Below, in pieces: positions 52,495 through 59,358 of a stretch of DNA of 64,000 nt. Every line of letters starts with the position of its first letter. Position 1 is the first letter of the stretch. Below the pieces are notes generated by a model. It was not told where the DNA came from and did no database searches. It was given only the letters and a program-made list of their open reading frames with translations. This stretch comes from Anaerolineales bacterium. GTDB taxonomy: Bacteria > Chloroflexota > Anaerolineae > Aggregatilineales > UBA2796. The stretch is from NCBI GenBank assembly GCA_015075625.1, contig JABTTZ010000001.1, forward strand, positions 1,736,001 to 1,800,000. Direction: 5' to 3'. The position numbers were made by a program, and so were the translations under genes.

Positions 52495-52696
52495 CAGCCT
52501 AAGGGGAACTGCCCCGACAGAGCTTGAAAGGCAAAAGACATTACCCCTCGGTCTCCTTTCTCCGTCTGCGGGAAAAGGGGAGGGGCGATAGGTTGTTTGA
52601 AATACATTCTACACAACCGGTTTGTCAAAGACCCTGAATGACGGACTTGTTGAGGCTGAAATCAGATGGTTTTACGTTACCATCGGAATAACATCT

Positions 52697-53347
52697 ATGG
52701 CAGACAACACAGCCCTTCCTCAACTACCTGACCCAGCGGGGTTCAATCCTTACGCCGAATTACCCTACGGATGCACCCCCGAACACATCAGATTGGCAAT
52801 GAACGAATTCATCGACTTCTTGTCTTTTGTGAATCAACAACTGGCAACAAAGGATATTCCACGCCTAGAAACAATGCTCATGCCCGCCAATTTTAGCAGT
52901 ATGGTCGGCGAATTTGTTATTGCCAGCATTCCGAAATACTGCCCAACCCTTGCCAAAAATCGCTACCACAATGGTCATCCTGACCTGATTCCTGTCGGGC
53001 GTTTTCCCAAGAACCGTGTGCAATACACAACGGAAGGAATTGAAGTCAAAGCCTCGCGTTACGTGCGGTCATGGCAAGGTCACAACCCAGAGGCTGTGTG
53101 GCTGATGGTGATCGTTTTTGAGAGCAATAGAGCGAGTGATAGTGATGAGGCAGACGAAGGTACGGCGGCAGTGGTCATACCCTTTAGGTTCTTGATGGTT
53201 GCTGGCGCTCAATTGGAAAAAGAGGATTGGAAATTCGCGGGACGGTCAGCTACCAGCCGTCGGACAATTACAGCCAGTGTAGCTGACTCCGGCTATCAAA
53301 AAATGATGCTGAACTGGATTTACAAAGCTCCTCGGTTAAGGAAATAA
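52697..53347 (+). CDS. Putative type II restriction endonuclease
   Basis: A 216-residue protein (start MADNTALPQL; an upstream TTG would add 25 residues). A PD-(D/E)xK nuclease signature is visible in GHPDLIPVGRFP followed by EGIEVKASRYVRSW. Here Asp plus Glu-x-Lys are spaced as expected. It converges with an adenine/cytosine amino-methyltransferase with a 12-bp overlap, the usual layout of a type II pair. Its base composition is clearly less GC-rich than that of the flanking genes, and the module is bracketed by direct repeats, both signs of transfer. The recognition site cannot be read from sequence. I do not recognise a specific named enzyme. Confidence 0.72.
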   Translation: MADNTALPQLPDPAGFNPYAELPYGCTPEHIRLAMNEFIDFLSFVNQQLATKDIPRLETMLMPANFSSMVGEFVIASIPKYCPTLAKNRYHNGHPDLIPVGRFPKNRVQYTTEGIEVKASRYVRSWQGHNPEAVWLMVIVFESNRASDSDEADEGTAAVVIPFRFLMVAGAQLEKEDWKFAGRSATSRRTITASVADSGYQKMMLNWIYKAPRLRK

Positions 53348-54313
53348 AGAGGACTGGTATGCGGAGCCTTTGAAGGACGATTGAAGTTTCGTTAGTTTGG
53401 GAATTGCCGCTAGGCTCATCTGATAGTAGTCTGTGTGTCGTTCTACCCCTACACACGACAACCCCATAGATTCCCCGGCGGCAATGGTCGCTCCAGAACC
53501 CATGAATGGGTCGGCAAGAATACCTTGTCCGAGGGGGAGGGCGGCATAAACGATTTGGCGTAGGAAGGATTGCGGCTTCAAACTGGGGTGATTGGCAATA
53601 TCCCGTTCCTTTTGTGGTGTGCGTTCACTCGGAATGACATCGCTAAACGGTCTACCGTCAGGGGTGCGCCGCAAACCGCCAGTGCCGAAGTCCCGCAGGC
53701 AATCGCTCACCCGCATTCCGGGGAGAAGGGGTTTACGAAACAAGCCCCATGGCTCGAATGCGCCCCGTGGCAGTGAGGATACATCGGGAAATTCTTCTTC
53801 GGCATTCTTAGGGCGGTCTCCGCCGCGCAGAGTCTGCACCAGACGGATAATCTCTCCCCGAAATTCAAGATTGCTCTCGATCAACGCGCCAAAGACAAGC
53901 TGGGAGAGGAAGGCATTGCTTGCCAAAAAGAGATGACCACCGGGCAGCAGCGCTCGCCTTGCCAATGTCCCCCAGTCGGTAAAAAATGCTTTTAAGGTTG
54001 CCCGTTCTTTCGGATTAAGGGCGGTGAAACGTGGCAAAGGAGAGCGCTCATGACCATCGAACGATGGGGGAATGCGCCAAATGCCGCCTTGCCCTTTTTC
54101 CCGTTTGGTAAGCTGCTCGGCTTGGTACTCTTTGACTCCATAAGGTGGATCAGTCACGATGGCGTGTAAACTGTTTTCTGGGATGGTTTGCAGCCATGCC
54201 AGACAGTCGCCATGAATCACTATGGAGCGCCCGATCCGTGTTGATGGGAACTGCTCACCAAAGCGGTCTATCGACTCTATCGGCTGCATGATTTCACCCA
54301 ATTCCATCCCCAT
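53336..54313 (-). CDS. DNA N6-adenine/N4-cytosine methyltransferase, beta class
   Basis: A 325-residue methyltransferase. The catalytic motif IV HAIVTDPPYGVKEY comes first (about residue 55) and the SAM-binding motif I ADPFMGSGATIAAGESMG near the end (about 275). That is the beta-class order. The target-recognition region lies between them. It protects DNA from the convergent endonuclease. A TATAAT on the minus strand (54341-54346) about 28 bp upstream is a candidate -10. An alternative start at the second or third ATG (54307, 54289) is possible. It modifies A-N6 or C-N4; sequence alone does not decide. Confidence 0.88.
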   Translation of the reverse strand: MGMELGEIMQPIESIDRFGEQFPSTRIGRSIVIHGDCLAWLQTIPENSLHAIVTDPPYGVKEYQAEQLTKREKGQGGIWRIPPSFDGHERSPLPRFTALNPKERATLKAFFTDWGTLARRALLPGGHLFLASNAFLSQLVFGALIESNLEFRGEIIRLVQTLRGGDRPKNAEEEFPDVSSLPRGAFEPWGLFRKPLLPGMRVSDCLRDFGTGGLRRTPDGRPFSDVIPSERTPQKERDIANHPSLKPQSFLRQIVYAALPLGQGILADPFMGSGATIAAGESMGLSCVGVERHTDYYQMSLAAIPKLTKLQSSFKGSAYQSSLFP

Positions 54314-55117: not shown

Positions 55118-56008
55118 ATGAGTCATCCAATCCCTACAGACGCCATCGATGGTAGCCACATCAGACGTGAATGGCATGAAAACACATGGTACTATGGGGT
55201 TGTGGATATCTTGATGGTTTTGCTCGATGCGGATCAAAAACGCGCTCAAAACTACTATCATGTCCTTAAAGGGCGTCTAAAGCGCGAGGGCAATGTCTCT
55301 CTCACAGGTTCTAAGCGGTTAAAGCTGCTTGCCAGCGACGGAAAGCGTTATTTGACGGATGTGATGAATGCGGAACAAGTTTTACGCTTGATTCAGTCTG
55401 TGCCGTCGCCCAAAGTCGAGCCACTAAAACTATGGTTAGCACACATTGGGGCTGAACGGTTTGAGGAGCAAGATGACCCAGAATTAGGATTGTTTCGCTC
55501 CTTAGACAGGACGATTGCGGAGTATCAGGCGAAGGGGAAACCAGACAGTTGGATTGTCTACCGTGTGGAAGGAATCATCACACGTAAACGGTTTGTCGAG
55601 GCGTTGAGCCAAGCCGTTCTTAGTGCGCCCCCCTCTATGTACGCACAAACGACGGAGCGGATGTATCGCGGGCTTTGGGATCGCACGACCATTCAATTGC
55701 GTAACGAGTTAGAAATCTCCCCAAAAGAAAACCCACGCGATCATTTTGGGAAGTACGCCCTTATGTATACGCGCCTTGCCGAAGAGTTGGCGGCAGAAAA
55801 ACTTGTTGATGCCGAAACTGTATCCCTTTCAACAGCGATGGATATTGTCTGGCAGGTAGCAAAATTGTTTGGTGCCCAGGCGAAGCAATTGAGCGAAAAC
55901 GTGGGCTATGATTTGGTGACGGAGAAACCTTTACTGCCCAAACCCTTATCCACAAAGGGGACATCTGATCTGCCAGCAAGCGCCAAGCCCAAAAAATCCT
56001 TGAAGTAA
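55118..56008 (+). CDS. BRO-N domain protein (DinD/phage-antirepressor-like)
   Basis: A 296-residue protein. The N-terminal 110 residues are a BRO-N domain: [37 protein letters not shown] and [20 protein letters not shown]. The remainder is helical and resembles DinD-type proteins ([60 protein letters not shown]). BRO-N domains bind DNA and are common in phages and mobile elements; DinD is a damage-inducible relative. A near-consensus promoter with repeated operator-like sites precedes it. Its composition is AT-richer than the core genes. The exact function is unknown. Confidence 0.85.
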
Positions 56009-56145: not shown

Positions 56146-56457
56146 TTAGCCCGTGCAGACGCATGTCCAGCTTTGAACATTCGCGCAACGCCCGCGATTA
56201 CCGCCCGCCACGTTCTCCAATTGATCATCGGAGAGTTCGTCGCTGCCGCTTTCCGCGGCGGGCATGTGAGGGATCACCAAATAAAAGGTGTCGGCAGACT
56301 CCTCAACGATCTTGATATTTACGCCATCTGGGATGTGCCAGCCCGTCTCCGAAGCGACGGCTGCCGCCGGATTTGCCATGAGTTCGGCGCGATAAGCGGA
56401 ATCTTTCTTAGCGCGACCCACAACCTTCTCTTCACCTTCACGACGTGCGTCAGACAT
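56146..56457 (-). CDS. RiPP precursor peptide, NHLP leader, copy 1
   Basis: A 103-residue precursor. The leader is a nitrile-hydratase-like (NHLP) domain: VVGRAKKDSAYRAELMANPA, AAVASETGWHIPDGVNIKIV and EESADTFYLVIPH. An acidic linker ends in the double-Gly cleavage site DDQLENVAGG. The predicted core is the 17-residue NRGRCANVQSWTCVCTG with three Cys. GGAGG lies 7 bp before the ATG. A paralogue is 155 bp upstream on the same strand. No lanthionine synthetase, YcaO, radical SAM enzyme or peptidase-transporter is in the window, so maturation must occur in trans. The compound class is not decided by sequence. Confidence 0.85.
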   Translation of the reverse strand: MSDARREGEEKVVGRAKKDSAYRAELMANPAAAVASETGWHIPDGVNIKIVEESADTFYLVIPHMPAAESGSDELSDDQLENVAGGNRGRCANVQSWTCVCTG

Positions 56458-56533
56458 GGGGAGCCTCCGTGTAACCTACTGTGTAAACCGACCACTTGCT
56501 ATGAGAAAACTGACCTTTTTCGTTGAATTGCCC

Positions 56534-56569
56534 CGCTTGCCCGATGGGTGTCCCCATATGGGGCAAGCG
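56534..56569. other. Nested palindrome between the two RiPP genes
   Basis: An outer inverted repeat, CGCTTGCCC (56534-56542) with GGGCAAGCG (56561-56569), partly overlaps the perfect palindrome CCCCATATGGGG (56552-56563). It may attenuate read-through from the upstream precursor gene or bind a regulator. No T-run follows. Confidence 0.5.
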
Positions 56570-56612
56570 TGCAACGCTGTGATGCCTTGGTCTGTAGACT
56601 GCTGCCCAGAGC

Positions 56613-56912
56613 TTAGCCCGTGCAGACACACGTCCACGTCTGGATATTCGAGCAGCGCGTCCGCGACCCACCCGCCACATCTTCTAGCTGTTCATCACCG
56701 AGTTCCGAGCCTTCACTGCTGAAGGGGATGACAAGGTAGAACGTGTCGGCGCTTTCTTCGACCACTTTCACCGTGACGTTATCTGGGATTTGCCAGCCCG
56801 TCTCGGCGGCGACTGCGGCTTTCGGATTGCTCATCAGTTGGCTGCGGAATGCCGCATCCTTCTTCGCACGCTCAACAACCTTCGTCTCACCGGTGTAGCG
56901 ATTGTCAGACAT
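56613..56912 (-). CDS. RiPP precursor peptide, NHLP leader, copy 2
   Basis: A 99-residue paralogue of the previous peptide. The leader reads VVERAKKDAAFRSQLMSNPK, AAVAAETGWQIPDNVTVKVV and EESADTFYLVIPF. The linker GDEQLEDVAGG gives the cleavage site. The core SRTRCSNIQTWTCVCTG matches copy 1 at 12 of 17 positions; all three Cys, both Arg and WTCVCTG are kept, and the changes are mostly conservative (A/S, V/I, S/T). AGGAG lies 11 bp before the ATG. It is the promoter-proximal member. An array of GAGAC repeats sits 59 bp upstream of its start. Confidence 0.87.
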   Translation of the reverse strand: MSDNRYTGETKVVERAKKDAAFRSQLMSNPKAAVAAETGWQIPDNVTVKVVEESADTFYLVIPFSSEGSELGDEQLEDVAGGSRTRCSNIQTWTCVCTG

Positions 56913-56958
56913 TGTTACTCTCTCCTGAACTGCTTGTGTGTTCCCGAACGTTGAACAT

Positions 56959-56987
56959 AGGATACAGGGGATTTTGTCTCATGTCGT
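56959..56987 (-). promoter_or_regulatory. Candidate promoter of the RiPP genes
   Basis: Minus strand ACGACA (56982-56987), a 17-bp spacer and TATCCT (56959-56964). Both hexamers are weak, as expected for an activator-dependent promoter. The -35 region lies inside the GAGAC array. Confidence 0.4.
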
Positions 56988-57042
56988 CCCTTTTTGTCTC
57001 TAAGCTGTTGCAATGTGTCTCTAAAGAGTCTCATTTCGTCTC
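56971..57042 (-). promoter_or_regulatory. Helically phased GAGAC direct-repeat array
   Basis: Seven units of 10 or 11 bp read on the minus strand: five are exact GAGAC, one is GGGAC and one GCAAC, each followed by an A/T-rich half. Exact copies on the plus strand start at 56976, 56996, 57017, 57028 and 57038. The array begins in the last codons of the ABC ATPase gene and ends 6 bp before the candidate -10. Confidence 0.65.
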
Positions 57043-59358
57043 TGGAACGGGAGACTCTGGATCGCTTTCGGGGTGAATGCCCGCCATGAGCAAGCCCAGT
57101 TGTTCGCGGGTTGCCCCTTCGCTTGGCACAATGGCGATGATTTGCCCCTTGTACATGACGGCAATCCGATCCGAAAGCGCCATGATCTCATCCAACTCGG
57201 CAGAGACGAGCAAGACGGCGGCGCCGGCATCGCGCTGGCGGATGATCTGGTTGTGGATGAACTCAATCGAGCCGACATCAATGCCCCGCGTCGGTTGGGA
57301 GGCGATCAGCAGGCGCGGCTGGCGGCTGAATTCCCGCGCCACGACCATTTTTTGTTGGTTGCCGCCGGAAAGACTGCCCCCTTTCGTTTCCGGGGAGGGC
57401 GTCCGAATATCGAATTCCTCGATCAATTCTTGGGCGGTGTCGTGGACGGCGGCGGCGTTCACCGTCAGCCCGCCCATTGTTGAGACGGCAGCCGTCTTAA
57501 GCCAGCGCCGAAGAACGCCCAAGAGAGCAATACTCCCTCGGTGGGCAGCCAATACCCCAAGCAGCGCCGCCACCAGCGAAACGCCCATCGCCAGCAGGAA
57601 GGGTGGAATCTCGCGGCGGTTATCCAGTTCGGAAAGGCGCAGGGCGTTCACCAAAAGGGCATAGAGCGGCGTCCAGAGGACGGTGAACAGGGCAAAGAAG
57701 ATCAGCGCAAAAGTAGCCCCATACACGGCGACAGCGGCGGGTATCTCGCGCAGATCGGGAAACACGGCGAAGGGCGTTTTAAAGTAGTTGTTCAGAACAA
57801 GGTTATCGGCAACGGAGAAGGGTTTTACCATCCCGTAGCGGTGGCGGTCTTCGGGGACATGGGCAGTATCGGCAAGCATCAGGGCGCGGGGACTTTGGAT
57901 CGGTATCAGCACGCCGTTGATCGTCACCGTCCCACTCAGTGGTTTACGAAGCCCGGTGAGCGCCTCTACGAATTCGGTCTGCCCGTTGCCCTGCACGCCA
58001 GCAATGCCGAGGACTTCCCCCCCCCGCACCGTGAAGGAAACCTCTTTCACCGCCGTCGTCCCCCGCTCATCTTGGGCGCTGATCCCCGCCACAACGAGGA
58101 CGGGATCGGCGGGTTGGGCGGGCTGCTTGTTCACCTTTAGCAGCACCTCCCGCCCAACCATCATCGCCGCAAGGGAGGCTTCCGTCATGCTGGCGGGAGC
58201 TGCCGCCCCCATGACCCGCCCCCCGCGCATGACGACAATGTGATCGGCAATGGCGAACACCTCCTTCAGCTTGTGGGTGATGAAGATGATCGAAACGCCC
58301 TTCGCCGCAAGGTCTTTCATAATGCGGAACAGTTCGCGCCCCTCTTGCGGGGTAAGAACTGCCGTCGGCTCATCAAGGATCAGAATTTCCGCCTTGCGGT
58401 AGAGCGCTTTCACAATCTCCACGCGCTGCTGAATACCCACCGGAAGTTTCTCTATCGTCGCGTCGGGGTCTACTTCGAGGTTGAATTGTTTGGAAATCTC
58501 CCGCACGCGGCGGGCGGTGCGCCGGCGGTTTAGGCGGTTCAGCACCGTCCCAAACCAATCGAGGATAGCACTGACCGCCATATCCATGACGGAGCGGTGG
58601 GCGCTGTACTCCAGTTTCAACGTCCGCCCGTGCCATGTTCGGCGGGCGTGGCGGTAAAGCCAGACCATCGTCAGCGCCCCGCCCACCGCCCCAAGCACCA
58701 GCGGCAGCCAGACGAGGATCGTCGTCAGGACGGGGTGGCTTTGGTAATACTCACCGAGGGCAAGGCTTGCCTTCTCGAAAAGCTCTAGGCGCTGGAAACG
58801 CCGCTGCCCAAAATCGGGGTTGTTCGGAAGGTAAATGCCAAAATTCAAGAGAAACAAAAACAGGATATAGCCAAGCCCCACGCCAACGAGCGCTGCCAAA
58901 AAAGGCGTCACCACCCGCCACAGCGCCCCCCACATAAGGCGCACCGCGCCGGCAAAGGCGGTTTCATCGGGCGGGGGGGCATCCTCTTGCCCGCTCACCG
59001 TCTTTTCCTCCCCCAAGACGACGTTTTCGGCAACGGTCATCACCGGAATCAGTTGAAAGTGCTGATGGACCATCCCAATTCCGCTGTGGATTGCCTCGCG
59101 GGGGCTGGCAAACTTCACCTCCCGCTCCTTTAAGAGGATTTGCCCTTCGTCGGGATGGTACAAGCCATAGATGATGTTCATTAACGTGCTTTTACCCGCG
59201 CCGTTCTCGCCAAGAAGCGCCAAAATCTCCCCCTTGTGAAGTTTTAGGCTGACATCTTGGTTGGCAATGACGCCGGGGAAGCGTTTCGTGACGCCCGCCA
59301 CCTCAAGGACGATCTCACGGGTGTCGGGGGGGGTTGGTTGTGTCGTTGTCATGATCAC
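57031..59358 (-). CDS. BMP/nucleoside-type ABC importer ATPase with membrane insertions in both NBDs
   Basis: A 775-residue protein; relatives with two fused nucleotide-binding domains have about 510. NBD1: Walker [12 protein letters not shown] (51-61), Q-loop [20 protein letters not shown], signature [11 protein letters not shown] (305-315), Walker [15 protein letters not shown]2: degenerate Walker [37 protein letters not shown], signature [26 protein letters not shown]. Both are typical of the RbsA/BMP group. Between Q-loop and signature, NBD1 carries residues about 119-278 and NBD2 residues about 530-640 as extra sequence, each with two likely membrane helices. It overlaps the permease gene by 4 bp. 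The substrate is probably nucleosides, by family. Confidence 0.88.

Follow-up and report, generated by a model that had tools for sequence, protein, structure and literature searches.

A tandem pair of NHLP-leader peptides with a new core as candidate substrates of an unlinked, ProcM-like LanM in a genus of Chloroflexota

In the prochlorosin and synechococsin systems, one LanM acts on precursors that may be encoded far off in the genome (PMC10783134; PMC7268733). NHLP genes adjoining a LanM were described by Haft et al. in 2010 in Nostoc and Azospirillum, and the same authors noted Nif11-type peptides that share only the genome with a LanM (PMC2887384). Lanthipeptide mining is usually limited to the vicinity of the synthetase; e.g., a large survey covered, as it stated, seven genes on either side of the LanC-domain protein (PMC7268733). 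A pair such as the one analyzed here would be missed in this way. We found little literature on lanthipeptides in Chloroflexota. Here, we propose that two tandem genes from this phylum encode substrates of a ProcM-like class II lanthipeptide pathway whose enzyme is encoded apart from them and acts in trans, a reading that we consider likely from the comparison of sequences.

The window is a stretch of 64,000 nucleotides (G000:C1:1736001-1800000) inside a five-contig genome of 4.68 Mb, G000, with a completeness of 98.5%. It encodes on its minus strand an upstream precursor of 99 aa (56613..56912) and a downstream one of 103 aa (56146..56457), both starting with ATG. They match TIGR03793 (“NHLP leader peptide family RiPP precursor”, NCBIfam) at 85.6 bits (E-value 1.6e-24) and 83.0 bits (1e-23), respectively, over the curated cut-off of 50.9 bits. 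Both also match Pfam NHase_alpha over its cut-off, in the C-terminal part of nitrile hydratase alpha. The Nif11 model gives at most 16.7 bits on either precursor, versus a cut-off of 32.3, and the leader is thus of the NHLP type. It is followed in both by an acidic stretch, a GG site, and a core of 17 residues. The upstream leader extends to GG82, with the core SRTRCSNIQTWTCVCTG (17 codons, 56616..56666, minus strand), and the downstream one to GG86, with the core NRGRCANVQSWTCVCTG (17 codons, 56149..56199, minus strand). A whole-genome search found these two NHLP leaders only. The sequence-only reading had described both open reading frames as RiPP precursors with an NHLP leader and a GG site, which is confirmed here. 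It had also called them orphans, which is right for the neighborhood and wrong for the genome, where a LanM and an exporter are encoded elsewhere (see below).

When 60 related genomes were searched, the same tandem pair was found in G001, the sole other genome of the genus. Both genes have their orthologue there, and in both genomes the pair stands at the end of the same operon, made of an ABC ATPase and two permeases. The first gene of this operon (57031..59358, minus strand; Pfam ABC_tran) is a syntenic marker outside the pathway. The precursor proteins are about 60-72% identical, versus only about 40% at third codon positions. Because the pair was kept in place in G001 while third codon positions diverged, we conclude from this comparison that the protein, core included, is under purifying selection and that a chance origin of the pair is excluded. 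Selection on the core had been proposed from the window, and the loss of the GG site or of Cys in a relative had been named as a result that would speak against a RiPP. Such a loss was looked for and is absent, since the GG site and all three Cys are intact in G001. The pair could otherwise be a relic, or a non-functional duplication carried along with the ABC operon, because biosynthetic genes are absent nearby and the synteny could be passive. We regard this as extremely unlikely, given the excess of protein identity over that of third codon positions, the intact reading frames and GG/Cys residues, and an upstream repeat array that is conserved in sequence and spacing. Next to the pair, the window also encodes a 296-aa protein with a weak Bro-N match (55118-56008), whose gene does not accompany the pair in G001. 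A gene for an N6/N4 DNA methyltransferase (52622-54313, minus strand) is convergent with a gene for a 241-aa protein without Pfam match, perhaps as a restriction-modification pair.

The cores of G001 are ARVRCPVETWSCKCTA and GSTRCPVQTWSCKCTA. All four precursors have 15-17 residues after the GG, with three Cys in each core, and RC-x(1-2)-[VI]-x-[ST]-W-[ST]-C-x-C-T-[GA] is what the genus has in common. The longer motif RxRCxNxQxWTCVCTG, read earlier from the window, holds between the two paralogues of G000 but not across the genus, where the shorter pattern remains. The same core was not found in the 60 relatives, in 396 genomes of the class, or in a pattern scan of GTDB r220 contigs, and the other matches have the leader alone in common with the pair. 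The core sequence is, by these searches, new among the genomes searched.

The paired cores are identical at 12/17 residues in G000 and 12/15 in G001, share one Cys pattern, and are more alike within one genome than between genomes. In the core, synonymous codons agree more often, but not convincingly so (Fisher 0.43 in G000, 0.055 in G001), and we claim no recent gene conversion of this tract inside either genome. The leaders match best by position (68% identity between the upstream copies and 72% between the downstream ones, versus 60-70% in the other comparisons), and the precursor duplication therefore probably predates the split of the two species. This parallel divergence, together with the retention of the tandem pair as a pair in both genomes, could be expected of a two-component lantibiotic proper, with two cooperating peptides, and the pair had indeed been described as a two-peptide natural product. 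However, two-component lantibiotics have dissimilar alpha and beta peptides. Because the cores are instead near-copies of each other, the two-component sense is unsupported and seems to us rather unlikely. The pair seems to represent two variants of a single product.

The pair is preceded by six direct repeats, GAGAC or GGGAC (56976..57042, minus strand), in steps of 10 or 11 bp and one of 21 bp (10, 11, 21, 10, and 10 bp). The first sites overlap the end of the ABC transporter gene. The array lies 68 to 130 bp upstream of the start codon of the first precursor in G000 and 61 to 123 bp upstream in G001. The spacing is the same in G001, where all six sites are GAGAC and a degenerate site occupies the 21-bp gap. 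The triple-repeat pattern occurs twice per genome, both times within the array, and nowhere else in G000 or G001, while a reversed control pattern has zero occurrences in both. Because the repeats are helically phased, the array suggests a row of activator-binding sites of the SARP or OmpR/PhoB type. A possible, weak promoter (ACGACA, 17 bp, TATCCT; 56954..56982, minus strand) was placed by eye from the sequence and the alignment with G001; a consensus promoter scan reported nothing. SARP promoters have direct repeats one or two helical turns apart, upstream of a weak -10 (PMC10936776). The array recalls the operators of AfsR and ActII-ORF4 in its direct repeats at helical steps, here upstream of a possible weak -10. 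It differs from them in its six or seven GAGAC repeats, in its steps (as above, versus repeats of 11 or 22 bp), and in the distance from the last repeat to the -10, which would be 9 to 11 bp with a -10 that is uncertain and placed by eye, versus 8 bp in SARP operators. We found no such array upstream of the LanM and no operator common to the pair and the LanM.

The presence of precursors without modification genes nearby raises a question: which enzyme could modify them? G000 has one LanC-type match, a full-length LanM encoded on contig C2 without a precursor beside it (719 bits versus a cut-off of 304; positions 2-932 of 932 of TIGR03897). Downstream on the same strand are an NHLP HlyD adaptor (TIGR03794, 243 versus 156 bits) and then an NHLP C39 peptidase/exporter (TIGR03796, 1104 versus 853 bits). 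G000 encodes no other NHLP-type HlyD adaptor, and no other exporter of the genome exceeds that cut-off. Beside the LanM there was no match to TIGR03797, the second exporter subunit, and the genome search found neither YcaO nor SPASM radical SAM proteins. The genome thus combines leaders over the cut-off, GG sites with short cores, and both TIGR03796 and TIGR03794, as NHLP systems do. The sequence-only reading had predicted an enzyme encoded elsewhere and had named a genome without candidate maturase as contrary evidence. The genome-wide count (one LanM, one NHLP-type C39 peptidase/exporter, no YcaO, and no SPASM radical SAM), with the LanM, adaptor, and exporter all on another contig, agrees with its prediction, and none of the results that it had named as contrary was seen. 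On C1 the precursors lie 318 kb, and on C2 the LanM lies 271 kb, from the nearer contig end, which puts at least about 590 kb between them. In G001 the LanM (53% identical) is likewise on another contig than the pair, with a HlyD gene fragment after it. The NHLP model found no NHLP-type peptide within the LanM loci of G000 or G001. These loci have little intergenic room, and the small ORFs in the gaps are not credible as hidden precursors. Both genomes of the genus have a full-length LanM as well as the pair, and the nine other genomes of the family have neither. As the two genomes are sisters, this co-occurrence counts once, as one evolutionary event, and we take it as supportive. Two tRNA-Ser genes (L002:7473-7682) stand directly after the operon of LanM, HlyD, and exporter, which could have been acquired there.

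The LanM holds the equivalents of CylM D252, H254, K274, D347, H349, D364, R506, and T512; the roles of the phosphorylation and elimination residues of CylM have been described, as have its zinc ligands, two Cys and one His (PMC4550811). In the LanM of this genus, the zinc site of the cyclase reads CHG...CCG (LCCGTFG, ACCGSFG), i.e., the His is replaced by Cys to give a three-cysteine site, whereas the second zinc motif is CHG in LicM2 and in other Chloroflexota LanMs. CCG is a mark of the ProcM-like group of synthetases (PMC10783134), in which it was linked to substrate tolerance (PMC10783134; PMC12328550). In a tree of 28 LanMs, all from Chloroflexota, the six sequences with CCG group together, supported at 100/100. 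All four other CCG loci have an NHLP-type peptide within a few kb of the LanM, placed immediately upstream, downstream, or within about 2 kb. At least three of the four show a GG site or a Cys-bearing core, and one (G445) has no visible core. Hence, the CCG clade appears to go with NHLP peptides, and the split between enzyme and substrate is, on these loci, a trait of the genus under study. A T-W-x-C step is seen again at the ends of some unrelated NHLP cores (VTWECCN, VTWSCCHAN, and CWTWSCI...; L113:7773-8156, L113:11698-12006, and L038), and it may recur among the substrates of these enzymes. Seven NHLP peptides of one genome of the class Anaerolineae (G173:C18:90810-117926; L036, L046, and L049-L053) have GGGRT[LM]RP after the GG and a C-terminal Cys, another conserved-then-variable precursor family.

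The pairing of this LanM with the precursors is suggested by its being the sole candidate and by guilt by association. With the assembly at 98.5% completeness, a further maturase could have escaped it, and other, unprofiled modifying enzymes may possibly act on the precursors. The lack of linkage could also mean that the LanM acts on something else, e.g., a Nif11-leader peptide, of which G000 and G001 have one each, and that the NHLP pair is processed by an enzyme of an unknown class. We find this very unlikely: the sister LanMs of the clade adjoin NHLP-type peptides, YcaO and SPASM proteins are absent, and the Nif11-type peptides were rejected as LanM substrates because their cores lack Cys and so cannot form lanthionines. 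Somewhat less improbable, though still unlikely, is that the precursors are exported and cleaved by the NHLP exporter, unmodified by the unlinked LanM, with their Cys free or disulfide bonded. The GG site and the C39 exporter would suffice for this, and the odd number of Cys would be no obstacle if the peptides dimerize. Yet the operon of this very exporter includes the LanM, an intact enzyme for which the genome offers no further NHLP-type substrate, and the four cores all keep three Cys and three Ser/Thr at a spacing compatible with rings. The two Nif11-leader peptides, L117 (G000:C1:2073267-2073497, minus strand; TLTLSAEIVHLL...) and L118 (G001:C177:15989-16216, plus strand; VMRVPGEVISLL...), have a GG site and are encoded divergently from the gene of a conserved ~395-aa protein that carries an HExxH-like motif (HEGTH or HECVH). 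They are possibly a second, non-lanthionine RiPP pair.

Class II lanthipeptide synthesis, which we favor, is consistent with a LanM that has dehydratase and cyclase domains with intact catalytic residues and with the ring-compatible spacing of the cores. In two of the four cores, NRGRC... and ARVRC..., the Ser/Thr number exactly three and occupy the three positions at which every core of the set has such a residue. There are thus enough partners for each Cys, and the free Cys left over that had been envisaged earlier is not required. The residues of the nisin rings D and E are TATCHC. In the nisin group these rings are intertwined (PMC4698656). The [ST]-x-[ST]-C-x-C of the cores has the same spacing, a likeness of spacing only, without claimed homology of the peptides, and nisin is a class I lanthipeptide (LanB/LanC). 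Once rings like D and E form, the N-terminal Cys and the last Thr remain, and we infer that they make the third bridge, with the Cys before the dehydro residue. Bridges in this direction exist among ProcM products. The predicted pairs are T10-C13 and T12-C15, intertwined, and C5-T16. By calculation, the loss of three waters would bring NRGRCANVQSWTCVCTG from 1853.808 to 1799.777 Da, and that of three or more would bring SRTRCSNIQTWTCVCTG from 1914.850 to 1860.818 Da or less. We put forward only tentatively, as a possibility we would not bet on, the full picture of a compact new-core lanthipeptide of about 16-17 residues, with an intertwined D/E-like pair and a third Cys-to-Thr bridge. In this picture, its ProcM-like synthetase became separated from the substrates in a single genus of Chloroflexota, and a dedicated phased operator took control. 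If true, the ring topology, an intertwined pair plus a bridge from the N-terminal Cys to the C-terminal Thr, would be new. The ring pattern is a concrete and cheap prediction in a poorly cultured phylum.

The pathway that we infer, from enzyme-substrate pairing to export and a biological role that may be antimicrobial, signaling, or morphogenetic, would run as follows. The phased GAGAC array of the pair would set its transcription, and the NHLP leaders would be recognized by the single LanM of G000, encoded at least about 0.59 Mb away. This enzyme would phosphorylate the conserved Ser/Thr of the core and eliminate water, and its ProcM-like CCG cyclase domain would then add the three Cys to the dehydrated residues, in the simplest case to give intertwined rings across the [ST]-x-[ST]-C-x-C stretch, with a bridge from the N-terminal Cys to the last Thr. 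The C39 domain of the exporter encoded beside the LanM would cut after the GG, and the HlyD/ABC pair would export the product. The two genes could thereby give two close versions of one product.

How does this system compare with those already described? It shares with the Haft et al. systems the NHLP leader, the LanM, and the TIGR03794 and TIGR03796 exporter genes, but there the NHLP genes adjoin the LanM and here they are unlinked. The pair shows that precursors can be unlinked in organisms other than picocyanobacteria, with another type of leader and no variable library of cores. The split between enzyme and substrate arose inside a clade whose remaining members have the two side by side, so that it can be dated and tested. 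With ProcM and SyncM the system has in common a single LanM with a CCG zinc site, distant precursors, a GG site, and a long leader. The differences are that the leader here is NHLP and theirs is Nif11, that each genome has two near-identical cores instead of dozens of hypervariable ones, and that the precursor locus, in Chloroflexota, is syntenic and has its own conserved array. Hence, the system works like a prochlorosin system but, on account of its leader and cores, is not one. The split arrangement was already known from marine cyanobacteria, and it is the peptide core that is new.
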